From Halostella pelagica (GTDB lineage: Archaea > Halobacteriota > Halobacteria > Halobacteriales > Natronoarchaeaceae), in the NCBI GenBank assembly GCA_005954745.1, contig CP040678.1, positions 558,001 through 622,000 on the forward strand: a stretch of DNA of 64,000 nucleotides, written 5' to 3'. Made by a program: the position numbers and the translations under genes. Of the stretch, positions 7,185 through 63,124 are shown piece after piece; position 1 is the first letter of the stretch; each line of letters starts with the position of its first letter. The notes below the pieces were generated by a model. The model had not been told where the DNA came from. It saw nothing but the letters and a program-made list of their open reading frames with translations, and made no database searches.

Positions 7185-7501
7185 GGCTGGGAGAACGCGG
7201 AGGAACTACTAATAGGAAGCGAACAGGCGACGCTCGGGTTCTCGGCGCGACGGTGCATCGCACTCCCGCGCTGGGTCGTGCGACCGGATTCCTACTGACG
7301 GACGCAAATCACTGAAGAATTTCGCGGGGGCGTCCCCGCGAAATGTCTGAAACAGTTACGTCCGACAGTATCAGGTCACGCCGACGGGTGGCCTCGCCCT
7401 CGTACAAAAACCTGGGGTCAACCGACAGTAGCGCTTGCAACTGTTTACACATCCGACCGCATGCAACCGTGCGGTCGAGTGTGGGCAACTCGCAAGCGCT
7501 A
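7185..7501. other. 317-base gap between mce and mut with two long palindromes
   Basis: No gene is seen here. The stretch holds a 78 bp imperfect palindrome at 7293-7370 that recurs at 45880-45957, and a second long stem-loop at 7427-7503 that reaches into the stop codon of the mutase gene. The mce promoter lies at its left end. Confidence 0.6.
7293..7370. repeat. Dispersed palindromic element, copy 1
   Basis: The two arms pair imperfectly over the full 78 bp and end in a perfect 11 bp central stem (ATTTCGCGGGG / CCCCGCGAAAT) with a GCGT loop. By hand alignment it matches 45880-45957 without gaps and with about 13 differences. Its right arm read in reverse contains GTAACTGTTTC, close to the GTAACTGTGTAC of the copies at 55708, 62938 and 38149, which suggests one family with two subtypes. 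Confidence 0.7.
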
Positions 7502-7503
7502 CT
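7427..7503. repeat. Long stem-loop overlapping the mut stop codon
   Basis: A perfect 12 bp outer stem (AGTAGCGCTTGC / GCAAGCGCTACT) and a perfect 8 bp inner stem (CGACCGCA / TGCGGTCG) are joined by a partly paired region. The right outer arm covers two bases of the mut stop codon at 7502-7504. It could act as a 3'-end structure or terminator for mut. One arm contains GCAACTGTTTACACAT, similar to the arm of the dispersed palindrome next to it, so it may be a divergent sixth copy. Confidence 0.55.
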
Positions 7504-9184
7504 ATAGCGTCCCGCCCGGACGATGCTCCCCGAAGACATCGCGAAGCACGTCACAGACCTCGCCGACCGTCGCGTACGCTTTCACGGCGTCGACGATGTA
7601 CGGCATCACGTTTTCGTCGCCCTCGGCGGCCTCGCGGAGCGCGGCGAGTGCGGCCTCGGTCTCCTCGTCGTCCCTGTCGCTTTTGGCGGTCTCCAGTCGG
7701 TCTATCTGCCGGCGTTCGTCCTCTTCCGTGACCTCCTGAATGTCCATCTCGGGCTCCTCGTCGGTCTCGAACTCGTTGACGCCGACGATGATTCGGTCGC
7801 CTTCCTCTATCTCCTCCTGACGCTCGAACGCGGTGTCTTGGATCTGTCGCTGGACCCACTGTGATTCGACGGCGCGTAACATGCCGCCTTTCTCGTCGAC
7901 GGTGTCCAGAATGTCGAACGCCTCCGATTCGAGTTCGTCGGTGAGGTTTTCGACGTAGTAGCTCCCGGCGAGTGGGTCGATGGTGTCGGCGGCCCCGGAC
8001 TCGTGGGCGAGGATCTGCTGGGTGCGAAGCGCCGTGCGAACGCTCTCCTCGGTCGGGAGCGCCAGCGCCTCGTCCTTGCCGTTCGTGTGGAGGCTCTGGG
8101 TGCCGCCCAGGACGGCGGCGAGCGCCTGATAGGCGACGCGGACGACGTTGTTCTCGATCTGTTGGGCGGTGAGCGTCGACCCGGCGGTCTGGGTGTGAAA
8201 CTTCAACTGCTTCGACTTGGGATCGTCCGCGTCGAAGCGCTCCTCCATGATCGTCGCCCACATCCGTCTGGCGGCCCGGAACTTCGCCGCCTCCTCGAAG
8301 ATGTTGTTGTGGGCGTTGAAGAAAAAGGAGAGTTGGGGAGCGAACTCGTCGACGTCGAGGCCCGCGTCGAGCGCCGCCTCGACGTACTCGATGCCGTTAC
8401 CGAGGGTGAACGCGAGTTCCTGTGCGGCCGTAGACCCCGCCTCGCGGATGTGATAGCCGGAGATAGAGATGGTGTTGAAGTTCGGCGTCTCGTCGGCACA
8501 AAAGTCGAAGATGTCGGTGATGATCCGCATCGACGGCTCCGGCGGGTAGATGTAGGTGTTGCGCGCGACGTACTCCTTCAGTAAGTCGTTCTGGATGGTG
8601 CCGCGCAGTTGCTCGCGGTCGACGCCCTGCCGGTCGCCGACGGCGATGTACATCGCGAGCAACACGGACGCGGGGGCGTTGATCGTCATCGATGTCGACA
8701 CCTCGTCCAGCGGGATGCCGCCGAAGACGGTTTCCATGTCGTGCAGCGTGTCGATCGCGACGCCCGACTTGCCGACCTCGCCGGCGGCCATGGCGTTGTC
8801 GGAGTCGTACCCCATCTGGGTCGGCAGGTCGAACGCCATCGAGAGACCGGTCTGGCCCTCGTCGAGCAGGTAGTTGAACCGCTCGTTCGTCTCTTCGGGC
8901 GTCCCGAAACCCGCGTACTGCCGCATCGTCCACAGGCGGCCGCGATAGCCGGTCGAGTAGACGCCGCGAGTGTATGGCTCTCGCCCCGGATACCCCAGGT
9001 CGTCGTCGTAGTCCATGTCCGCCACGTCGTCGGGCGTGTACAGCCGGCTAACCGTCTGCCCGCCCGTGTCGGTGGTGAACTGCTCCTTGCGCTCCCCGAA
9101 CCGCTCGACCGTCGGGTCGACGTCGTCCGCCTCCCACTCGGCCTTCGACTCGCGGATCGCTTCGAGGTCGTCCGAGTCGAACAT
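7502..9184 (-). CDS. mut: Methylmalonyl-CoA mutase, large (catalytic) subunit
   Basis: The 560-residue protein covers the substrate-binding TIM barrel of methylmalonyl-CoA mutase, with the archetypal N-terminus ([33 protein letters not shown]) and later [29 protein letters not shown]. It lacks the C-terminal cobalamin-binding domain, as is normal in archaea where that domain is a separate small protein; that partner is not in this window. It converts R-methylmalonyl-CoA to succinyl-CoA, closing the propionyl-CoA route, and mce follows downstream. Confidence 0.93.
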
Positions 9185-13251: not shown

Positions 13252-13299
13252 ACGGGTTCGCGGCGTCTGGCCCGCCGTAGTCGGGGGAATACCGTCCCG

Positions 13300-13863
13300 C
13301 TACGACTCCCACTCGCGGCGTAACAGGCCGTACTGGATGCCGTCGCGGTACGCGCCGTCGACGTACCACGCGTTCCGCAGACGCGCCTCCTGCGTGAAGC
13401 CGAGCGATTCGAGCAGGCCGCGCGACGCCTCGTTGAAGCCGTACGCGCCCGCGCTGATGCCGTGGACCGGATGCGAGCGAAACACCGCGTCAACGACGAG
13501 TTCGACGGCTTCGCCGGCGTAGCCCTCGCCGTGGTAGTCCGGGTCGAGCCAGTAGCCGAGCCACGCCCGCTCCCTGTCGACGCCGCGGGCGTGGACCGCG
13601 CCGACGGGCGTCGTCTCCTCTTCGTCGGGGTCGCCAGCGGCCGCGCCCTCCTCGTCGAGACAGACGAGAAATCCGCGCGTTCCCTCGTTCTCGGTGTCGT
13701 TTTCGATCCGCTCTCGCACTTCGGCTTTCGTCTGGTGCGAGTCGATGCCGAGTGAGAACCGAACGCGAGGGTGGGTCGCACACGTCTGGACGAACTCCGC
13801 GTCCTCGCGTTCGACGGCACGCAGAGTGACGCGTTCACCGGCGTCGATGATCGGCCCCGGCAT
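13300..13863 (-). CDS. GNAT acetyltransferase, RimJ/RimL type (array gene 4)
   Basis: Last of four coupled acetyltransferase genes, 187 residues. It starts MPGPIIDAGERVTLRAVEREDAEF and has the acetyl-CoA loop GYWLDPDYHGEGYAGEAVEL; its C-terminal half is nearly identical to that of gene 3 (HPVHGISAGAYGFNEASRGL and following). The TGATG junction with gene 3 sets the start at 13863. RimJ/RimL-type enzymes acetylate protein N-termini or small amines; the substrate here is unknown. Confidence 0.85.
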   Translation of the reverse strand: MPGPIIDAGERVTLRAVEREDAEFVQTCATHPRVRFSLGIDSHQTKAEVRERIENDTENEGTRGFLVCLDEEGAAAGDPDEEETTPVGAVHARGVDRERAWLGYWLDPDYHGEGYAGEAVELVVDAVFRSHPVHGISAGAYGFNEASRGLLESLGFTQEARLRNAWYVDGAYRDGIQYGLLRREWES

Positions 13864-14420
13864 CACTCCCACTCGCGGCGCAACAGGCCGTACTGTATTT
13901 CGTCGCGGTACGCGCCGTCGATGTAGCGGCACTGTCGCTGCCGCGCCTCCTGCGTGAAGCCGAGTGATTCGAGCAGGCCGCGCGACGCCTCGTTGAAACC
14001 GTACGCGCCCGCACTGATGCCGTGGACCGGATGCGAACTGAAGATGTCGTCGACGGCGAGTCGGACCATCTCTTTCCCGTAGCCCTCGCCGTGGAACTCC
14101 GGAAGCAGCCAGTACGCCAGCCACGGCCGGTCGCCGTCGACGTGGCGCGCGCTCACCGACCCGATCACCGTCGTTTCGTCCTCGCCCGGGTGTCCGGCGG
14201 ACGGGTCGTCGTCTACGCACGCGATGTACGCTACGGTGCTGTCGCTCTCTAGCCACTCTTCCATGCCCGATTCCAACTGTGCGCGACTGCTCGGAAAGAC
14301 GGACCCGAGGGAAAACCGGATCCGGGGGTCTGTTTTCGACCGCTGGAGGACCGCGGCGTCCTCGCGCTCGACGGTACGCAAGACGACGCGCTCGCCGGCG
14401 GTGACGACGGGACCGGGCAT
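13863..14420 (-). CDS. GNAT acetyltransferase, RimJ/RimL type (array gene 3)
   Basis: 185 residues, starting MPGPVVTAGERVVLRTVEREDAAV, with the acetyl-CoA loop YWLLPEFHGEGYGKEMVRLA. The start at 14420 overlaps the stop of gene 2 as TGATG, and its own stop overlaps gene 4 the same way. About 95 bases of its 3' half match gene 4 with only around four differences, far closer than the 5' halves, which points to recent duplication or gene conversion between the two. Confidence 0.85.
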   Translation of the reverse strand: MPGPVVTAGERVVLRTVEREDAAVLQRSKTDPRIRFSLGSVFPSSRAQLESGMEEWLESDSTVAYIACVDDDPSAGHPGEDETTVIGSVSARHVDGDRPWLAYWLLPEFHGEGYGKEMVRLAVDDIFSSHPVHGISAGAYGFNEASRGLLESLGFTQEARQRQCRYIDGAYRDEIQYGLLRREWE

Positions 14421-14986
14421 CACCGGCCCTCCCACTCCTCGTGGAGCAAGCCGTACTGATACACGTCGCGGTACTCGCCCTCGACGAACAGAACCTCGCG
14501 GTTACGCCCCTCCTCGACGAAGCCGACCGCTTCGACGTGCTCGCGAGTCGCCTCGTCGCCAGCGACCACTTCGACGCCTATAGTGTTCGGGTCGTACGTC
14601 CGAAGCACCGTGTCGACCGCCAGCGAGAGCGCCTCGACGCCGTAGCCCTCGCCGCGGAACGCCGGCGCGACCCAGTGATTGACGCCCGGCCGGTCACGGT
14701 CTACGTGGGTCACGGCGACGAACGCCACAGGGGTCGTCTCGTCCTCTTCGGGATGTCCCCAGGGTGCGTCGTCATCGTCAACGCAGGCGAGATACGCCGC
14801 CGTGTCGCGCTCTTCGAGGTCGCCTTCGAGCAGTTCCTCGACCTCTGCGTGGTTCTTGTGACCGTGTTCCTGAAACCCGACACGCGCCCACGGGTCCGCG
14901 AAGAGTCGCTGTACGAACTCGGCGTCCTCTCGTTCGACGGTACGCAACACGAGGTCGTCGCCGGCCTCGACTATCGGCCCCGGCAT
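14420..14986 (-). CDS. GNAT acetyltransferase, RimJ/RimL type (array gene 2)
   Basis: 188 residues, starting MPGPIVEAGDDLVLRTVEREDAEF, with the acetyl-CoA loop HWVAPAFRGEGYGVEALSLA. It is more divergent from genes 3 and 4 in the C-terminal half. Start and stop both lie in TGATG overlaps with the flanking array genes, so translation is probably coupled along the array. Confidence 0.85.
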   Translation of the reverse strand: MPGPIVEAGDDLVLRTVEREDAEFVQRLFADPWARVGFQEHGHKNHAEVEELLEGDLEERDTAAYLACVDDDDAPWGHPEEDETTPVAFVAVTHVDRDRPGVNHWVAPAFRGEGYGVEALSLAVDTVLRTYDPNTIGVEVVAGDEATREHVEAVGFVEEGRNREVLFVEGEYRDVYQYGLLHEEWEGR

Positions 14987-15525
14987 CAGTCGTCCTCCCA
15001 CTCCTCGCGGAGCAGTCCGTACCAGACGACGTCGACGTGTTCGCCGTTCCGGAACCGCGCGTCGCGCAGTTGTCCCTCGTGCGTGAACCCGAGGTTCTCC
15101 AGAACGCCCACGGAGCCTTCGTTCGGTGCGAACGCCTGCGCCTGCAGTCCGCGGATCTCGTGTGCGTTGAACGCGTAGTCCACGAGGACGCCGACCGCCT
15201 CCGTACCGTACCCCTCGCCCTGATACTCGGGGAGGATCCAGTACGATATCTCGGGACGCGTGTGGTGGAGGTTGCTCAGTCTCACTTTCCCGATGGGGGT
15301 CGGCTCGTCCCCGTCTTCGAGACAGACGAGGAGTCCGACGTTCAGCGGGTCACCCTCGTCGTCTTCGATGTTTGCCTCGGCTTCAGTCTCGCTCTCGGGG
15401 CGGTTCAGGCCAAGCGTCACCCCTACATCCGGATGGTTGTGTCCTCGCTGAATGAACTCTGCGTCCTCGTGTTCGACCGTCCGGAGGGCGAGACGGTCGC
15501 CGCGACGGAAAACTGTCCCTGGCAT
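14986..15525 (-). CDS. GNAT acetyltransferase, RimJ/RimL type (array gene 1)
   Basis: First gene of the array, 179 residues, starting MPGTVFRRGDRLALRTVEHEDAEF, with the acetyl-CoA loop YWILPEYQGEGYGTEAVGVL. A TATA-like CGATTTAGTG about 25-30 bases upstream of 15525 is the likely promoter for all four genes. The track frame extends upstream, but alignment with the paralogues fixes the start here. The four proteins share the same opening pattern (MPGxxxxxGxxxxLRxVExEDAxF or V). Confidence 0.85.
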   Translation of the reverse strand: MPGTVFRRGDRLALRTVEHEDAEFIQRGHNHPDVGVTLGLNRPESETEAEANIEDDEGDPLNVGLLVCLEDGDEPTPIGKVRLSNLHHTRPEISYWILPEYQGEGYGTEAVGVLVDYAFNAHEIRGLQAQAFAPNEGSVGVLENLGFTHEGQLRDARFRNGEHVDVVWYGLLREEWEDD

Positions 15526-22803: not shown

Positions 22804-22820
22804 CCGCGCGGTGACGGCGT

Positions 22821-22947
22821 CGCGCTTCCTCGACCGTTCTGCGGCGACTACCGCGGTCGCGCTTCCTCGACCGTTCTGCGGCGACTACCGCGGTCGCGCT
22901 TCCTCGACCGTTCTGCGGCGACTACCGCGGTCGCGCTTCCTCGACCG
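22821..22947. repeat. Tandem repeat, 37 bp unit, about 3.4 copies
   Basis: Three exact 37 bp units (from 22821, 22858 and 22895) and a 16-base partial unit (22932) follow each other. The rightmost copies include the last codons and stop (22922-22924) of the adjacent minus-strand gene, so the array looks like repeated duplication of that gene's 3' end. The 37 bp unit is not a multiple of three. Confidence 0.9.
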
Positions 22948-36372: not shown

Positions 36373-37277
36373 GCCGTCACCTCCAACTTCGCGACGAAGA
36401 ACCCGCCGGTGTCCTGGAAGTGGGGGTAGATGCGGGCGGCCTTCCGGACGCTGTCGTCGAACCCGTCGCCCTCCCACTCCGTGATGCCGGGCGCGTGTTC
36501 GATGTCTATGTCCATCTCGACGACGCGACAGTCTTCCTCGGCGATCACGTGGTCGAGAGCGGCCTCGTTCTCCTCCGGCGCGAACGTGCAGGTGGCGTAG
36601 ACGACCGTGCCGCCCTCGCGGGTGGCCTGTACGGCGCGTCGGAGTATCCCCTTCTGGACGCCCGCGACGCTGTGGACGTGGTTTAACGACCACTCGTCGA
36701 ACGTGTCCGGGTTCTTTCGAACCGTCCCCTCGCAGGAGCAGGGGACGTCGACCAGCGCGCGGTCGAACGGTTCGCCGTCGAACGGTTTCAGCGAGAAGTT
36801 CCGCGCGTCCCGGTTCGTGACGGCGACGTTCGAGACGCCCAGACGTTCGGCGTTCGACCGCAACGCCGAGAGGCGACCGAGGTTGTTGTCGTTGGCTACG
36901 AGTGTCCCGGTGTCCTCCATCAGGGCGGCGAGATGGGTCGTCTTGCTTCCGGGCGCGGCGCAGGCGTCCCAGACGCGCTCGCCGGGGTTCGGGTCGAGAA
37001 CGACGGCGGGGAGCGACGACACCTCCTCCTGGCCCTGGACCCAGCCGTGGAAGTACGGCCAGGTGTTGCCGGGGCGGTCAGTCTCCACCGTCATGACGCG
37101 GTCGTTCCAGTCGGCCTGCTCCCAGCCGACGCCAGCCTCGTCGAACGCGGCGGTAACCCGCTCGGTCGACGACTTGATCGTGTTGACGCGGACGGCCGAG
37201 GGGAGCGGCCGCTCACACGCGTCGAGGAAAGCGTCGAAATCGTCGACGATGGGGCGATACCGTTCCAGTGGTTCCAT
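36369..37277 (-). CDS. NOL1/NOP2/Sun-family RNA cytosine-5 methyltransferase
   Basis: The 302-residue SAM-dependent enzyme has DACAAPGSKTTHLA for SAM binding, the release cysteine in motif IV (VDVPCSCEG, Cys180) and the nucleophile in motif VI (YATCTFAPEENE, Cys230). It methylates C5 of cytosine in tRNA or rRNA. The protein has only the catalytic domain; the following coupled gene probably encodes the missing RNA-binding domain. The position methylated is unknown. Confidence 0.9.
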   Translation of the reverse strand: MEPLERYRPIVDDFDAFLDACERPLPSAVRVNTIKSSTERVTAAFDEAGVGWEQADWNDRVMTVETDRPGNTWPYFHGWVQGQEEVSSLPAVVLDPNPGERVWDACAAPGSKTTHLAALMEDTGTLVANDNNLGRLSALRSNAERLGVSNVAVTNRDARNFSLKPFDGEPFDRALVDVPCSCEGTVRKNPDTFDEWSLNHVHSVAGVQKGILRRAVQATREGGTVVYATCTFAPEENEAALDHVIAEEDCRVVEMDIDIEHAPGITEWEGDGFDDSVRKAARIYPHFQDTGGFFVAKLEVTA

Positions 37278-37402
37278 TACCGGCGGATTCGCCCGGCGGT
37301 CGCAAGTGCGTTTCGAAGCGACCGTTCGCGGCCGCTGTCTCCTCCCCGCCGCGGTTCGCGACTACCCCCACGGTTAAGACTCGTCCCCGAAACGTCCAGT
37401 GT

Positions 37403-38146
37403 ATGGCGCACGTCAAACTCCGCGGCGACGAGGCCGACTTCGAGGGAGCGTGGCTGGTCGAGGGAATGCCTGGCGTCGGTCTCGTTGGGAAGATAGCGAC
37501 CGACCACATCGTCGAACAGTTCGACATGGAGTACTACGCGAGCGTACACTGCGACGGCATCCCGCGGATCGGCGTCTATCAGGACGGCGACCGGGCGGTC
37601 CGTCCGCCGGTCCGTCTGTACGCCGACAGGGAGCGCAACCTCCTCGCGCTCCAGAGCGACGTGCCGGTCTCCGCGGAGACCGCAACCGACTTCGCCACCT
37701 GCGTCACGACGTGGCTCGAAGAGACGGGCGCCAAGCCGCTGTACCTCAGCGGACGCCCCGCCGAAAAAGACGGAAGCGCCCCGGACATGTTCGGCATCTC
37801 GACGGGCGACTCCGGCGGGATACTCGACGACCTGGACATCGGTACGCCGACCGAAAACGGGGCTATCGCGGGGCCGACAGGCGCGCTGATATCGCAGGCG
37901 GCCGAGCGTAACATCGACGGCGTCGGTCTGATAGTCGAGAGCGACCCGCAGTTCCCGGACCCGGAGGCGGCGCGGGTACTTATCGACCGCGGCATCGGTC
38001 CGGTCGCCGATATCGACCCGAACGTCTCCGACCTGGTCGACCGCGCCGAGGAGATCCAGAGCCAGAAGGAGCAACTCGCACAGCGGATGGGCGAAGCGAA
38101 CGAGCAGGAGAGTTCGCAGGCTCAGCCGCTGCGAATGTTCCAGTGA
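37403..38146 (+). CDS. PAC2-family proteasome assembly chaperone
   Basis: The 247-residue protein has the PAC2 pattern: WLVEGMPGVGLVGKIATDHIVEQ at the N-terminus, a central domain with TGALISQAAERNIDGVGLIVES, and a C-terminal helix (EEIQSQKEQLAQRMGEANEQ) ending QPLRMFQ. The terminal hydrophobic-x-aromatic tail is reminiscent of the HbYX-type tail by which these chaperones dock on the 20S proteasome, though not a perfect match. The start at 37403 is the family N-terminus. A dispersed palindrome begins 3 bases after its stop. Confidence 0.87.
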   Translation: MAHVKLRGDEADFEGAWLVEGMPGVGLVGKIATDHIVEQFDMEYYASVHCDGIPRIGVYQDGDRAVRPPVRLYADRERNLLALQSDVPVSAETATDFATCVTTWLEETGAKPLYLSGRPAEKDGSAPDMFGISTGDSGGILDDLDIGTPTENGAIAGPTGALISQAAERNIDGVGLIVESDPQFPDPEAARVLIDRGIGPVADIDPNVSDLVDRAEEIQSQKEQLAQRMGEANEQESSQAQPLRMFQ

Positions 38147-38148
38147 GA

Positions 38149-38224
38149 GGGAAACGTTGTAACTGTGTCGCGGTGTTCGCCGACCCGCGTCGGTGAACTG
38201 CCGAACTGACTTGCGAGAGCTATG
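38149..38224. repeat. Dispersed palindromic element, copy 2 (degenerate)
   Basis: It begins three bases after the PAC2 stop. It shares GTTGTAACTGTGT, TTCGCCGAC and CCGAACTGACTT in order with the copies at 55708 and 62938, but its right end has drifted. Same orientation relative to the gene as those copies. Confidence 0.65.
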
Positions 38225-38310
38225 GGCCTCTCCGGTCCGACCGTCGACCGCCGAACTATCGCCGACTGCGATCGTAGTTTCTTTTGCGTCTGGCGGAACG
38301 ACTGTGAACT

Positions 38311-44976: not shown

Positions 44977-45702
44977 TCACTCCGGAATGGTCCGGGCCTG
45001 CCACATCTGACGCGCCCGCTGGAGGTCCGCGAAGTCGTCTATCTCGATCCAGTCGTCGCCCACCTCGACGATGCCGACGTCGATGTCGTCGAACGTCTCC
45101 CGAAAGGCGGCTTCGTACCACTCGTTTACCCGCCCCCCGTCGACGAACCGGTCGAGCGCGTCGACCACCCGCTCCGCTCCGCGCTCGTCGAATTTGCAGA
45201 CGCCGATGTACTCGCCCGTCGCGCTGTCTATCTCCTTGCCGATGTCGACGACGGTGTCTCCGTCGGTGTCGACTTTCATCTCCTCCTTGCCGAGGTCTTT
45301 CTCGGCGTCGACGACGAGTGCGGACCCCTCCGCCGACTGCAGGCGGCCGAGGGCCGACCGCGGGAACATGGTGTCCGAGTTGATCAGCGTGAACCCGTCC
45401 CTAATGCGGTCGCGGGCGAGCCACAGCGAGTAGAGGTTGTTCGTCTCCCTGAACCGGTCGCTGTGGACGAACGACACCGACAGATCGCCGTGGCCGACGA
45501 GAGAGGCCCGGATCTGGGCTTCCTCGAAGCCCGTGACGACGGTGAGGTCCTCGTACCCCGTCGCGGCGAGCGCGTCCGTGATATGGTCGAGGATCGGTTT
45601 GTCGTCCACTGCTAACAGCGTCTTCGGCGTGTCCTCGGTCAGCGGCCGCAACCGGCGACCCAGGCCGGCGGCGAGTACGACCGCGTGGCTGTCTCCCCCC
45701 AT
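44977..45702 (-). CDS. Sugar/choline-phosphate nucleotidyltransferase
   Basis: The roughly 241-residue enzyme has the NTP-transferase signature [20 protein letters not shown] (about 8-27), LINSDTMFP for metal binding and a C-terminal [15 protein letters not shown]. It resembles the LicC/phosphocholine cytidylyltransferase-like branch more than classical sugar enzymes with a left-handed helix domain. Immediately followed by the glycerophosphotransferase gene, it may make the CDP-activated donor for it. An alternative start at 45717 adds five residues. Confidence 0.85.
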
Positions 45703-45717
45703 GAGAGAAGCGGACAA

Positions 45718-46034
45718 CGAATACGGTCAAAAGGGTCGGGTATGTCAATGGATGTCAATTGAGATGTACGGACGGAGATGCAGGGGTCGGCGGAGAGACG
45801 CGAACGAAGATGGAAGGGATCGACGGCCGACTCTCCGTCGGCGAACGCGACCGAGAACGGACTGTCGGCTCACCTCACATACTGCCGGACGGAAGTCAGT
45901 GGAGAATTCCGTGGGGACGCGCCCGCGAAATATCTGAAACAGTTACGTCCGACACTACCAGTCCCTTTCCCGAACTGTGACGGGCCGAAACACACCCTGC
46001 GAAACGTAAAGTGGACGCGGCGGAGGATCGTCGT
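45718..46034. other. 317-base gap with a dispersed palindrome
   Basis: No gene is seen between the divergent nucleotidyltransferase and acetyltransferase genes. It contains a TCAAT/ATTGA inverted repeat near 45744-45761 and, at 45880-45957, a copy of the 78 bp palindrome found next to mut. Confidence 0.6.
45880..45957. repeat. Dispersed palindromic element, copy 3
   Basis: It matches 7293-7370 over 78 bp without gaps (about 13 differences by hand count), including the block TCTGAAACAGTTACGTCCG. Unlike the other copies it lies between two divergent gene starts, about 80 bases ahead of the acetyltransferase. Confidence 0.7.
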
Positions 46035-46502
46035 ATGGAACTCGTCGAAGCCGGTGAGGAAGACCTCGACACGCTCGTCGACCGCTGGTATTCCCTCGCA
46101 AAATCGATGGAACCGTACGACGAACTGAATGAACTCGCTTATGGGGAAATCACCGAAGTCCCGGACGACGGCTTCCGCGACCATCTCGACGACGACGAAA
46201 TCACCGACTACCTCGTCGTTCACGAGGACGAGACGATCGGCTTTGTTACGCTTCGCGACGGCAACCACCCTTCCCGACAGTACTCTCAGTATCTCCGGAT
46301 CGTGAACCTCGCTATCGACAGAGACCACCGGAATCAGGGTCACGGCTCGAAAGTCGTCGAGCGCGTCGTCGAGATGGCCCGCGACCAGGGGTGCGACCAC
46401 GTCAAAGTCTCCTGCGAGTGGCAGAACGAAGACGCGCGCCGGTTCTACAGGGGTACGGGGTTCCGACCGAAACAGGTCGACTACGCACGACCGTTAGAGT
46501 GA
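46035..46502 (+). CDS. GNAT-family N-acetyltransferase
   Basis: The 155-residue protein has a GNAT core with the acetyl-CoA loop LAIDRDHRNQGHGSKVVERVVEMA (about 95-118) and the C-terminal NEDARRFYRGTGFRPK. Substrate unknown. It is not part of the tandem array at 13.3-15.5 kb. Codon use is a little less GC-biased than in its neighbours. The start at 46035 (MELVEAGEEDLD) is the natural family beginning. Confidence 0.85.
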   Translation: MELVEAGEEDLDTLVDRWYSLAKSMEPYDELNELAYGEITEVPDDGFRDHLDDDEITDYLVVHEDETIGFVTLRDGNHPSRQYSQYLRIVNLAIDRDHRNQGHGSKVVERVVEMARDQGCDHVKVSCEWQNEDARRFYRGTGFRPKQVDYARPLE

Positions 46503-54157: not shown

Positions 54158-55705
54158 GTGGCCGATTTATTCGGGGTTCCTCCCGAATCAACTAATCTCA
54201 AAGACGGTGCGGACGTACAGCTTCTCGATACGACGTTACGTGACGGGGAACAGGCACCCGGCATCTCGCTCACGCCTGACGAGAAGGCAGAAATAGCGGC
54301 GGCGCTTGACCGCGCCGACGTCTCCGTAATCGAGGCCGGAAGCGCCTGTACCGGCGAGGGCGAGCGCCGGACTATCCAGCGCGTGACCGACCTCGGTCTG
54401 GACGCGCGGATCACCAGCTTCGCCCGCGGGGTCCGCAACGATATCGACCTCGCGATAGACTGCGGCGTCGACGGCGTTAACCTCGTCGTCCCCGCGAGCG
54501 ACCGCCACATCGAGACGAAGGTCGACACGACCCACGACGAGGTCGTGCGAGACACCGTGGACCTGGTCGAGTACGCGAAAGACCACGGCCTCTGGGTCGA
54601 AGTCATCGGCGAAGACGGGTCACGCGCGGACCTCGACTTCCTCGAACGCCTCATGGACGCGGCGCTCGACGCGGGCGCGGACCGCGTCTGCTACGCCGAC
54701 ACCGTGGGCCACGCCGGCCCCGAACGGGCGGTCGAGGCCATCTCTCGCCTCTCCGAACTGGGCCCGGTCAGCACGCACACCCACGACGACCTGGGTCTCG
54801 GCGTGACGAACGCACTCGCGAGCGTCGCCGCGGGCGCGGACCTGATTCACGCCACGGTCAACGGCCTCGGCGAACGTGCCGGCAACGTCGCGCTCGAAGA
54901 GGTCGCCATCGCGCTCGACCACTCCTACGACATCGAGACAGTCGACACGACGCAACTGTACGACCTTGGACAGACTGTCGCCCGCGCGACGGGCGTCCAG
55001 ACCGCTCCGAACAAGGCGGTCACGGGCGCGAACGCGTTCACCCACGAGAGCGGCATCCACACCGACGGGACGCTCAAGGACGACCAGATGTACGAGCCGT
55101 ACCCGCCGGAGAAGGTGGGCCGCGAGCGCCGGATCGTCCTGGGCAAACACACCGGACGCGCCGGTGCCCGCGCCGCCCTCGACGAACACGGTGTCGACGT
55201 CTCGGACGAGGAACTAACAGAGGTCGTCCAGCGCGTCAAGGAAATAGGCGACCGCGGCAAGCGCGTCACCGACGCCGACCTCCTTGCCATCGCTGAGGAA
55301 GTGACGGGGCGCGACCGCGAGCGCCGCGTCGAACTGAAGGGCCTCACCGCCGCCAGCGGCGGCGGCACTCCGACCGCCAGCGTCCGCCTCGAAGTCGACG
55401 GCGAGGAGCGCCTCGCCAGCGGCACCGGGAGCGGACCGGTCGACGCCGCCGTCACCGCCGTGCGCGAGGCGCTCGGCTCCGCCGCGAACGCCACGCTCGA
55501 ATCATACCACGTCGACGCTATCACCGGCGGCACGGACGCCGTCGTCACGGTCGAGGTGGAAATGAGCCGCGGCGACCACTCCGTTACGGTGGCCGCGAAC
55601 GACGCGGACATCACGGGCGCGAGCGTCCGTGCGATGGTCGACGCGCTCGACCGCCTGCTCACCGTTCCCGGCGAGGACGGCCAGCCCGTTCTCGCGGACG
55701 ACTGA
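54158..55705 (+). CDS. Alpha-isopropylmalate/citramalate/homocitrate synthase family protein
   Basis: The 515-residue enzyme has the DRE-TIM barrel (LLDTTLRDGEQAPGI, HTHDDLGLG, NGLGERAGN, HESGIHTDG) and a C-terminal LeuA-type regulatory domain (about 385-500). It condenses acetyl-CoA with a 2-oxoacid; LeuA, CimA and homocitrate synthase share these features, and I cannot separate them here, though (R)-citramalate or isopropylmalate synthase is most likely. Start is GTG at 54158 after a TATA-like GGTTTATACG. The stop runs straight into a dispersed palindrome. Confidence 0.88.
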   Translation: MADLFGVPPESTNLKDGADVQLLDTTLRDGEQAPGISLTPDEKAEIAAALDRADVSVIEAGSACTGEGERRTIQRVTDLGLDARITSFARGVRNDIDLAIDCGVDGVNLVVPASDRHIETKVDTTHDEVVRDTVDLVEYAKDHGLWVEVIGEDGSRADLDFLERLMDAALDAGADRVCYADTVGHAGPERAVEAISRLSELGPVSTHTHDDLGLGVTNALASVAAGADLIHATVNGLGERAGNVALEEVAIALDHSYDIETVDTTQLYDLGQTVARATGVQTAPNKAVTGANAFTHESGIHTDGTLKDDQMYEPYPPEKVGRERRIVLGKHTGRAGARAALDEHGVDVSDEELTEVVQRVKEIGDRGKRVTDADLLAIAEEVTGRDRERRVELKGLTAASGGGTPTASVRLEVDGEERLASGTGSGPVDAAVTAVREALGSAANATLESYHVDAITGGTDAVVTVEVEMSRGDHSVTVAANDADITGASVRAMVDALDRLLTVPGEDGQPVLADD

Positions 55706-55784
55706 TAGGAACTGTTGTAACTGTGTACCGGTATTCGCCGACCCCGTGTCGGCGAAATACCGAAATGACTTACAACAGTCCCTA
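55706..55784. repeat. Dispersed palindromic element, copy 4 (best preserved)
   Basis: It begins the base after the synthase stop and spans 79 bp. The arms TAGGAACTGTTGTAA / TTACAACAGTCCCTA pair at the outside and TTCGCCGAC / GTCGGCGAA near the centre. It is about 90% alike 62938-63012. A poly-T run (55802-55808) follows soon after. Confidence 0.75.
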
Positions 55785-55990
55785 TGAGCGGACATCGTTT
55801 CGTTTTTTTGAGGCCAGTCCACTATCGTTCGGTCGAGTGGATAGCAGGCCTGCAGGGAGTAATATCGGCCGTCTGAAACCATATTGTCGGTATTTCGTCG
55901 ATATCTGGTAACTACCCCGTCAGCAACAGATCTGTGTTTGTGACGTAGTATCATACGGATCCATGTTGGCCACGCTGACAGGGGATACCA
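55785..55990. other. cetZ upstream region
   Basis: About 205 bases between the palindrome and the cetZ start hold no gene. There is a T-rich TTTCGTTTTTTT at about 55797-55808 that could end the synthase transcript, and AT-rich, TATA-like patches further on. No clear promoter stands out. Confidence 0.4.
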
Positions 55991-57163
55991 GTGAAACTAG
56001 CACTCATCGCAGTCGGCCAGGCCGGCGGCAAGATCGTCGACGAGTTCTTGGCGTACGAGCAGCAGGCCGACGCGGACTTCATCACGGCGGCGACAGCGAT
56101 CAACACTGCCAGACCCGACCTGGAGGGACTCGACTACGTGCCCGTCGAGAACCGCGTCCTCATCGGTCAGTCGCGGGTCGGCGGGCACGGCGTCGGTGCC
56201 GACAACGAACTCGGGGCGGAGATAGCCGCCGAGGAGTCGACGGAGATCGTCGCGGCGACCGACGACGTACCGGTGAGTCACGTCGACGCGTTCCTGGTCG
56301 TCGCGGCGCTCGGCGGCGGCACCGGAAGCGGCGCGGGCCCAGTCATCGCCAAAGAACTGAAGCGAGTGTACACGACGCCGGTGTACGGACTCGGTATCCT
56401 GCCGGCCAGCGACGAGGGGGGTATCTACACACTGAACGCCGCCCGCTCGTTCCAGACGTTCGTCCGAGAGGTGGACAACCTCCTCGTCTTCGACAACGAC
56501 GCCTGGCGCAAATCCGGCGAGACGCTCACGGCGGGCTACGACGAGATCAACGAGGAGATCGCGCGTCGCTTCGGCGTCCTCTTCAGCGCCGGCGAGACGA
56601 ACACCGACGACGCCATCGCCGAGAGCGTCGTCGACGCCAGCGAGATCGTCAACACGCTGAAAGCCAACGGCGTTTCCACGGTCGGCTACGCGTCCGAGGA
56701 ACTCACGCCCGAAGAGGAGGACCCGGGCCTACTCTCCCGGTTCACCGGCGGGTCGGCGGAACCGGACCCCAGCGAGGCGGAAAACCGGATCAACAGTCTC
56801 ATCCGGAAGGCGACGTTGGGACGGCTGACGCTGCCGTGTGACGTCGACAGCGCCGAGCGGTCACTGACGGTCGTCGCCGGACCGCCCGAGCACCTGAGCA
56901 GGAAAGGTATCGAGGAGGGGCGTCGCTGGCTCGAAGAGGAAACCGGGTCGATGGAGGTCCGGGGCGGTGACTACCCGCTCCAGTCCGACTCCGTCGCGGC
57001 GGCCGTGTTGCTCTCCGGCGTCACGGAAGTCCCGCGGGTCACGAAACTCCAGATAATCGCCAACGAGACTCAGGAGAACATCGAGGAGACGACGCAGGGG
57101 CCGGCGCAGGCTGAGGAGCAGTTGATCGGCGAACAGGGCGAGGACCTCGACCCGCTGTTCTAA
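55991..57163 (+). CDS. cetZ: CetZ tubulin-superfamily GTPase
   Basis: The 390-residue protein begins VKLALIAVGQAGGKIVDEFL (GTG start) and has the tubulin signature GGGTGSG at 108-114, plus the switch T4 and T6 regions. It matches the CetZ group of haloarchaea, distinct from FtsZ, which controls cell shape and motility. The C-terminal tail is acidic (EEQLIGEQGEDLDPLF). A strong hairpin follows the stop. No other cytoskeletal gene is adjacent, but a bactofilin-like gene lies 4 kb to the left. Confidence 0.9.
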   Translation: MKLALIAVGQAGGKIVDEFLAYEQQADADFITAATAINTARPDLEGLDYVPVENRVLIGQSRVGGHGVGADNELGAEIAAEESTEIVAATDDVPVSHVDAFLVVAALGGGTGSGAGPVIAKELKRVYTTPVYGLGILPASDEGGIYTLNAARSFQTFVREVDNLLVFDNDAWRKSGETLTAGYDEINEEIARRFGVLFSAGETNTDDAIAESVVDASEIVNTLKANGVSTVGYASEELTPEEEDPGLLSRFTGGSAEPDPSEAENRINSLIRKATLGRLTLPCDVDSAERSLTVVAGPPEHLSRKGIEEGRRWLEEETGSMEVRGGDYPLQSDSVAAAVLLSGVTEVPRVTKLQIIANETQENIEETTQGPAQAEEQLIGEQGEDLDPLF

Positions 57164-57272: not shown

Positions 57273-57420
57273 TGAAAAGCGCCGAGGAGGAGATTTGAAC
57301 CACGCGGACGGCGAAGCCGTCCTCTACTTCAAATCTCCACGTCCGTAGATTTCACGACGCTGGCGACTCGCTCCGCTCGTCACGTTGCGTCGTGAAAAGC
57401 GCCGAGGAGGAGATTTGAAC
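57273..57420. repeat. Duplicated 3' end of tRNA-Ser, att-like direct repeats
   Basis: The 28 bases at 57273-57300 are identical to 57393-57420, exactly 120 bases apart. They comprise the last 21 nucleotides of the tRNA (T-arm part, acceptor stem, discriminator base) plus 7 flanking bases. Between them lie nested inverted repeats: GGAGATTTGAA (57290) pairs with TTCAAATCTCC (57328) around a GGACGGC/GCCGTCC hairpin, and TTTCACGACGC pairs with GCGTCGTGAAA. Direct repeats at a tRNA 3' end are the mark of integrase sites. Confidence 0.7.
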
Positions 57421-57484
57421 TCCTGTGTCCTTGCGGACAGTTGCTCTCGAAGCAACCGCCTTGGCCGGGCTAGGCTACCTCGGC
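57400..57484 (-). tRNA. tRNA-Ser (anticodon CGA)
   Basis: An 85-nucleotide type II tRNA: acceptor stem GCCGAGG/CCTCGGC with discriminator G, D-arm with GCCTAGCCCGGCC, anticodon stem GTTGC/GCAAC around loop TTCGAGA (anticodon CGA, for UCG), a serine-type long variable arm TGTCCGCAAGGACA, and a T-arm with GTTCAAATC. No CCA is encoded and no intron is seen. A TATA-like CCATAACAT lies about 30 bases upstream. Confidence 0.95.
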
Positions 57485-61982: not shown

Positions 61983-62183
61983 AGGCGGTTTTGAAACACC
62001 GATGACTTAGGCTTTCTGCTTGTTTTCGGTGGAAAATAGAGGCTGCCATGGCAGCGAACCTGTCTCGACAGGTTAGTACTGTCACGACGGCGCATTATTG
62101 GCCACTTAACGAAGTCGCGATCCTCGGGTGGCAGGAGCCGACAGATCCGGACCCTTTTGTCGCCTTTCGTCGGATCCCAGACC

Positions 62184-62927
62184 GTGACCCGAGCGACAGT
62201 GTGGAACGAGTTCCGCCACGAACGAGAGCACGACCAGGTCGCGGAGATATATCCGGACGGAATTCACGTCACCATCGCCGAGGCGCTCGAAGAGCGCGGT
62301 ATCGACGCCGAGACAGCGACGCTCGACGAACCGGAGCACGGGCTACCCGAGGACACTCTCGACGACACTGACGTGTTGCTGTGGTGGGGCCACGACGCGC
62401 ACGAGGAGGTGAGTGAGGCGGTCGTCGACCGCGTTCAGGACCGTGTCCTCGCAGGGATGGGTCTGGTCGTACTCCACTCGGGGCACTTTTCGAAACCGTT
62501 TCGGCGGCTCATGGGCACCAGCGGGACGTTACGGTGGCGCGAGGCCGCCGAGACGGAACGGCTCTGGACGGTGAACCCCGGCCACCCTATCGCCGACGGC
62601 GTCGGGGAGTACTTCGAGGTCGACGAGGCGGAGATGTACGGCGAACCCTTCGATATCCCTGCCCCCGACGAACTCGTCTTCACCTCGTGGTTCGAAGGTG
62701 GCGAGGTGTTCCGCTCGGGCTGTTGTTTCTACCGCGGGAACGGCCGCCTGTTCTACTTCCGACCCGGCCACGAGACGTATCCGGTGTACCACGACGAGAC
62801 CGTCCAGCGGGTGCTCGGTAACGCCGTCGAGTGGGCCGCTGACGGGAGTGACGCGCCAGCGCCCGGCGTCGAAAACGTCGACCCTATCGAACCGATCGAC
62901 ACAGACGACGATCGGAGCGTCCACTGA
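62184..62927 (+). CDS. ThuA-like family protein
   Basis: The 247-residue protein has the ThuA-type glutamine amidotransferase-like fold: [61 protein letters not shown], and [13 protein letters not shown] near the C-terminus. ThuA proteins are linked to trehalose and other sugar use in bacteria, but no partner sugar genes are here. The GTG at 62184 fits the usual start (TRVTVWNE); the frame extends to a TTG at 62157. Confidence 0.85.
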
Positions 62928-62937
62928 CGCATTCATC

Positions 62938-63012
62938 GGGACTACTGTAACTGTGTACCGGTATTCGCCGACGCGGGGTCGGCGAACTACCGAACTGACT
63001 TACAGCAGTCCC
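62938..63012. repeat. Dispersed palindromic element, copy 5
   Basis: It starts ten bases after the ThuA stop, in the same orientation as copies 2 and 4. Arms GGGACTACTGTAA / TTACAGCAGTCCC and a TTCGCCGAC / GTCGGCGAA inner stem are kept. Confidence 0.75.
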
Positions 63013-63124
63013 TATCAGGGCCGCACATCCCCGGAGCCACGGTCGTTCACCGACCGATTCAGGATCGTGGACTAACCGACCGGGCCACAAACTCTCTTCC
63101 GGCTCGATAGTGTACTCTCCGGCC

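Follow-up and report, generated by a model that had tools for sequence, protein, structure and literature searches.

Bacterial MITEs such as ERIC, Correia elements (CREE) and RUP are palindromic, intergenic sequences of ~100 bp that are moved in trans and leave a short target duplication, which is TA in all three; RUP and CREE have been linked to IS630-type enzymes. Three-bp duplications of TNA or TWA are made by the IS1031 group of the IS5 family and by the PIF/Harbinger Tourist MITEs, DDE_Tnp_4 being a usual transposase class for duplications of the TNA type. Transposition by Y1 enzymes leaves no target duplication and requires no terminal inverted repeat. The closest described system is found in Haloquadratum walsbyi, which harbours two kinds of small mobile repeats (SMRs), SMR-A of ~110 bp and SMR-B (HqIRS41) of 80 bp (PMC3119063). 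SMRs have prominent inverted terminal repeats unlike those of any transposon, no transposase and a high copy number, and their mobilisation has been called "enigmatic"; they were reported to be without target duplications and, for SMR-A, to target IS605/PATE palindromes (PMC3119063).

The palindromes described here came to light in a stretch of 64,000 nucleotides of the Halostella pelagica genome (hereafter the window). They resemble SMRs in having the same two sizes (classes of 78 and 108 bp here), prominent terminal inverted repeats, a high copy number and no transposase, and differ from SMRs, which were compared by description only, in their 3-bp TNA duplication and their targets (stop codons and GACTSAGTC). 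A 3-bp TNA-type duplication is also found in the IS1031 group and in PIF/Harbinger Tourist MITEs, whose terminal sequences are different and whose PIF/Harbinger-like enzyme, DDE_Tnp_4, was detected in 0 of 59 genomes. Unlike ERIC, CREE and RUP, the haloarchaeal elements duplicate TNA and come in two quantised lengths. Literature searches turned up nothing on them other than the Haloquadratum paper (PMC3119063). A structural search of four Haloquadratum loci returned no copy, and an inverted-repeat scan of Haloquadratum sequence gave one chance-like pair among the matches listed ahead of those in runs of N. We class the elements as a variant of MITE, and SMRs, which agree with them in size but not in duplication, as only putative members of the same family.

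The original prediction saw in them a MITE, a REP-type element or a mobile terminator, and only the first of these fits. The palindromes are very probably non-autonomous, MITE-like transposable elements, since they are short and non-coding, with terminal inverted repeats, a constant 3-bp TNA duplication, more than 100 dispersed copies and empty sites in congeners.

Copies in the window and across the order

The five palindromes first noticed, at 7293, 38149, 45880, 55706 and 62938, were correctly placed and are genuine. As RNA, four fold better than dinucleotide shuffles (z of -8.1, -6.1, -7.8 and -2.5); decay of the outer arms explains why the 38149 copy does not (z -0.8). Their exact ends, set by the target duplication, are as follows, together with those of a possible sixth copy.

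55706-55784, plus strand: B-subfamily element, 79 bp, ends TA...TA; TGA duplication 55703-55705 / 55785-55787; whole 55703..55787
62936-63014, plus strand: B-subfamily element, 79 bp; TCA duplication 62933-62935 / 63015-63017; whole 62933..63017
38147-38222, plus strand: decayed B-subfamily element; left TGA 38144-38146, TGG by decay on the right; whole 38144..38225
7293-7370, minus strand: A-subfamily element, 78 bp; TCA right 7371-7373, TCC left (one change); whole 7290..7373
45880-45957, minus strand: A-subfamily element; both flanking target repeats decayed
7426-7504, plus strand: family C element with TAGTAGCGCTTGC ends; the possible sixth copy

Three copies were said to start 0-10 bases past a plus-strand stop, and so they do. 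For two of them the stop is the left target repeat itself, that of a leuA-like gene (54158-55705) for the 55706 copy and that of a PAC2-family gene (37268-38146) for the 38147 copy, while the 62936 copy begins 8 nt past the stop of a ThuA-domain gene (62157-62927). The 45880 copy sits between divergent genes (44977-45717, minus strand, and 46011-46502, plus strand). The two subtypes that had been distinguished, A (7293 and 45880) and B (38149, 55706 and 62938), are real, and further subfamilies exist. The possible sixth copy, at 7427, is a palindrome related to the others but belongs to a separate family C, and its right end provides the TAG stop of a methylmalonyl-CoA mutase gene (7502-9184, minus strand). 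In none of the 11 copies of family C (this one and 10 other places, L155-L165) was a TNA duplication seen, a point against the preferred reading. Their flanks are mostly TA, and family C has GCAACTGTTTAC in common with the TNA families. Elsewhere in the window are a tRNA gene (57400-57484, minus strand, just past a CetZ-like gene at 55991-57163), at least three units of exact 37-bp tandem repeats (GTCGCGCTTCCTCGACCGTTCTGCGGCGACTACCGCG; 22819-22947) and three diverged tandem repeats ~560 bp apart that are likely paralogous genes (13296-15000).

The initial observation was right and understated. The motif GTAACTGT-N(26-50)-TGACTT has 16 matches in the 3.94-Mb genome and 0 in a reversed control, and the covariance-model search that had been suggested, run with a model built from 18 copies, gave 141 hits counting both strands, or ~107 distinct places. 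With pattern searches, which recovered through its own end sequence a subfamily E (77 bp) that is absent from the window, the total in the host genome reaches ~130 copies. Near-identical copies are dispersed amid unrelated flanking DNA. The model also matches in 25 of 59 relatives (15 of 30 genera), the other 34 serving as a rough negative control, and 22 of 146 genomes, belonging to 11 of 56 genera, contain the 15-bp end TACTGTCGGCTGTAA together with TNA. The elements are thus spread over relatives across the order of the host. Subfamily F, whose 108-bp members have unrelated interiors, has 15 bp of end sequence in common with subfamily E, and such unrelated interiors between common ends argue for recognition in trans. 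Two F elements are similar to each other (L134, 1916-2023, and L194, 1413-1520), the former being nested inside a B copy with a TGA duplication.

Target duplication, length and ends

Every intact copy has the same layout, namely a TNA triplet, TA followed by an inverted repeat of 12-14 bp, the interior, the inverted repeat followed by TA and the same TNA again. The flanks of intact copies are TGA/TGA in 18 cases and TCA/TCA in 24, with 0 cases of either TGA/TCA or TCA/TGA, and since a palindromic flank would yield such mixed classes, the TNA repeat is a 3-bp target duplication. In subfamily E the matched flanks are TCA (11), TGA (8), TTA (3) and TAA (1), unmatched copies resemble decay of one flank, and no copy combines intact TNA triplets of two kinds, the single exception having a decayed end. 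A family-blind structural search (TNA, TA..TA and the same TNA, with a 14-bp inverted repeat, 60-124 bp) recovered de novo, in 2.6 Mb of loci, 86 distinct elements with matching TNA versus 1 mismatched. Much of this sequence was chosen for holding copies. The 1.5 Mb around leuA, chosen without regard to them, yielded 12 elements of the same two length classes. The 86 elements measure 75-81 bp (73, mode 78), 102-109 bp (12) or 65 bp (1), and when sizes of 24-4000 bp were admitted, the sole additions were pairs of nested or composite make-up, up to 4 kb. The consensus of the target is ~GACTSAGTC.

A target duplication and terminal inverted repeats in nearly every intact copy bear directly on the alternative that a Y1 (HUH) transposase moves these palindromes in the form of single-stranded hairpins, as for REP-like sequences or those derived from IS200/IS605 (PATEs). 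The elements are, like REP/RAYT and PATE sequences, repeated extragenic palindromes of high copy number, and PATEs are common in Haloquadratum (PMC3119063), but REPs and PATEs are without target duplication and PATEs also without terminal inverted repeats, which leaves this origin, and with it the REP-type label, highly improbable.

The terminal inverted repeats of the MITE-like elements are 12-15 bp long, and their outer 14 positions are 79-100% complementary in a set selected for matching ends, although copies recovered by model and pattern show these ends as well. End sequences vary among subfamilies and genera (TACTGTCGGC, TAGGGACTGT, TAGTGTTTAT and others), more than one transposase usually tolerates, which speaks against the preferred reading; positions 11-16 stay near TGTAAC across subfamilies. 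Interiors in the long class (102-109 bp) are largely unrelated.

Stop codons and paired arms

Empty sites are seen at stop codons. For the copies at C1:1847253 and C1:3130023, the orthologue in each of the four congeners (G001-G004) stops at the identical TGA and lacks the element, and at the first site both flanks align in G004 across a single TGA. LeuA of a same-genus genome (L270) ends GACGACTGA as at the 55706 site, with the same TGA and without the element, the intergenic region beyond the stop having diverged. In Salinibaculum litoreum (L292), the same leuA stop has received a long-class element of 107 bp, an independent event involving a different subfamily.

Residence at stop codons was counted for 129 copies placed relative to the calls of a simple codon-score gene caller. 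TNA is exactly the stop codon of a gene in 46 of them (43 TGA, 3 TAA), and 60 are at a stop codon if boundary error is allowed for. The expected share of stops among non-coding sites, where no gene would be broken, is 7.6% unweighted or 12.5% target-weighted, with a weight matrix trained on the same copies it weights (binomial 2e-13). Within the 3' zone (stop to +60), 60 of 78 copies are at the stop versus 37-49% expected (p of 8e-13 and 4e-7). At leuA-neighbourhood loci, which were not picked for elements, 7 of the 12 elements are at stops. Copies away from stops are frequent, 15 lying between divergent genes and 12 overlapping called genes. TGA and TAA being stop codons, an element that lands on one of them doubles the stop and does the gene no harm, and since an in-frame TGA at the target was a stop already before insertion, no gene is truncated.

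Most of the stop enrichment follows from target sequence and tolerance, and the residual excess, which is modest within the 3' zone (~1.6-2 fold), could be explained by selection or by an enzyme preference. A refinement of the MITE reading, not exclusive of it, would be that a host-encoded or orphan enzyme truly prefers gene ends, through coupling to transcription or translation termination. That the excess persists inside the 3' zone, that two independent subfamilies sit in the same leuA stop and that an IS-borne transposase was not found all point this way, but the excess could also reflect 3' UTR selection or an imperfect target model, and many copies lie elsewhere; a true stop-codon preference is therefore putative, and we consider it rather unlikely.

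Intact copies are predicted to form a 3' UTR hairpin in transcripts (z -6 to -8), and their arms are maintained as complements. Across 22 diverse short copies, 88.5% of cells are paired and 15 of 21 pairs show two-sided changes, with a covariation score that 0 of 500 shuffles reach and that collapses upon a one-column slide. The outer helix is biased, its rows having been chosen for matching ends, so only the inner helix is an independent test (72.7% paired, two-sided changes in 5 of 6 pairs). Strong folding as RNA, compensatory changes and the location of about half of the copies at stop codons would suit a structured RNA or terminator, that is, a transcript hairpin that stops transcription or protects the 3' ends of mRNAs and whose stems selection preserves at the RNA level. 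This is nevertheless very unlikely for several reasons: (i) a T5 run within 8 nt downstream is found in 0 of 60 stop-codon copies, T5 being rare in and beyond the element, (ii) across the genome, copies lie in either orientation to the gene (19 same, 27 opposite), at odds with the common orientation first read from the window, (iii) the copies between divergent genes and overlapping genes do not fit, (iv) an Rfam search of the window returned one tRNA only and no family for the elements, (v) G-U pairs are rare in the outer stem, where the pairing count is biased in any case, and (vi) the TNA duplication and fixed length are left unexplained. Points (i) and (ii) also leave the mobile terminator without support. 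Inspected by eye as a possible kink-turn or box C/D motif, the conserved internal loop showed neither a consistent C-box nor tandem GA, and this reading was dropped. Complementary arms may need no RNA function, since they could be kept so by template switching from one to the other or by selection for paired ends.

Mobilisation and significance

The original prediction proposed looking for a transposase whose ends match the elements; this search came up empty, which weighs against the preferred reading. No IS-size pair of terminal inverted repeats with TNA was found in the 2.6 Mb of loci at lengths up to 4 kb. IS-sized end pairs considered as the autonomous parent proved to belong to separate copies or to a B copy with an unrelated insert, and single-end matches in the own genome were decayed, truncated or chance copies. 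The genome searches used the best-conserved ends only, and a parent with diverged ends may exist. DDE_Tnp_1 insertion sequences from this and 8 other genomes have different ends and, where resolvable, duplications of 10 bp (CATTCGTC ends) or 8 bp (GGCTCTGTTGAAA ends). Plasmids yielded 5 haloarchaeal records and phages none, and viral contigs gave single-end matches only, the one inspected not being an intact element. As a separate observation, a ~1.3-kb element interrupts one B copy (L111, 2069-3361; G000:C1, about 1484427-1485719); the interrupting element has GCCTCTGTTGAAA/GGCTCTGTTGAAA-like ends and an 8-bp duplication (AAATGACT) and contains small ORFs, one of them helix-turn-helix-regulator-like by eye, and no obvious transposase.

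For MITE-like elements, a plausible scenario is that a trans-acting transposase recognises both ends, cuts TNA with a 3-bp stagger and puts the element in, whose fixed length and near-palindromy may come from geometric constraints when both ends have to pair on such short DNA. Haloarchaeal genes often end in ...GAC TGA, and with TGA and TAA both being TNA triplets, stops would make good targets; the duplication would restore the stop, selection would keep such insertions, and a settled copy would form a hairpin within the 3' UTR and be neutral or almost neutral. Possible, although we hold it only tentatively, is an order-wide family of mini-transposons, Haloquadratum SMRs included, that come only in 78 and 108 bp (a difference of ~three helical turns), with interiors free to change, a TNA duplication and stop-preferring insertion by an undescribed enzyme that has no matching-end IS.

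For these widespread archaeal repeats there is now a rule for size and a concrete one for the target (TNA and GACTSAGTC, in many cases a stop codon). How the most similar described repeats move has been called enigmatic, and the elements offer a testable substrate with which to look for the missing transposase. More generally, they illustrate how stop codons, as safe sites, can let a mobile element multiply in gene-dense genomes, with many genes acquiring a 3' UTR hairpin in the process.
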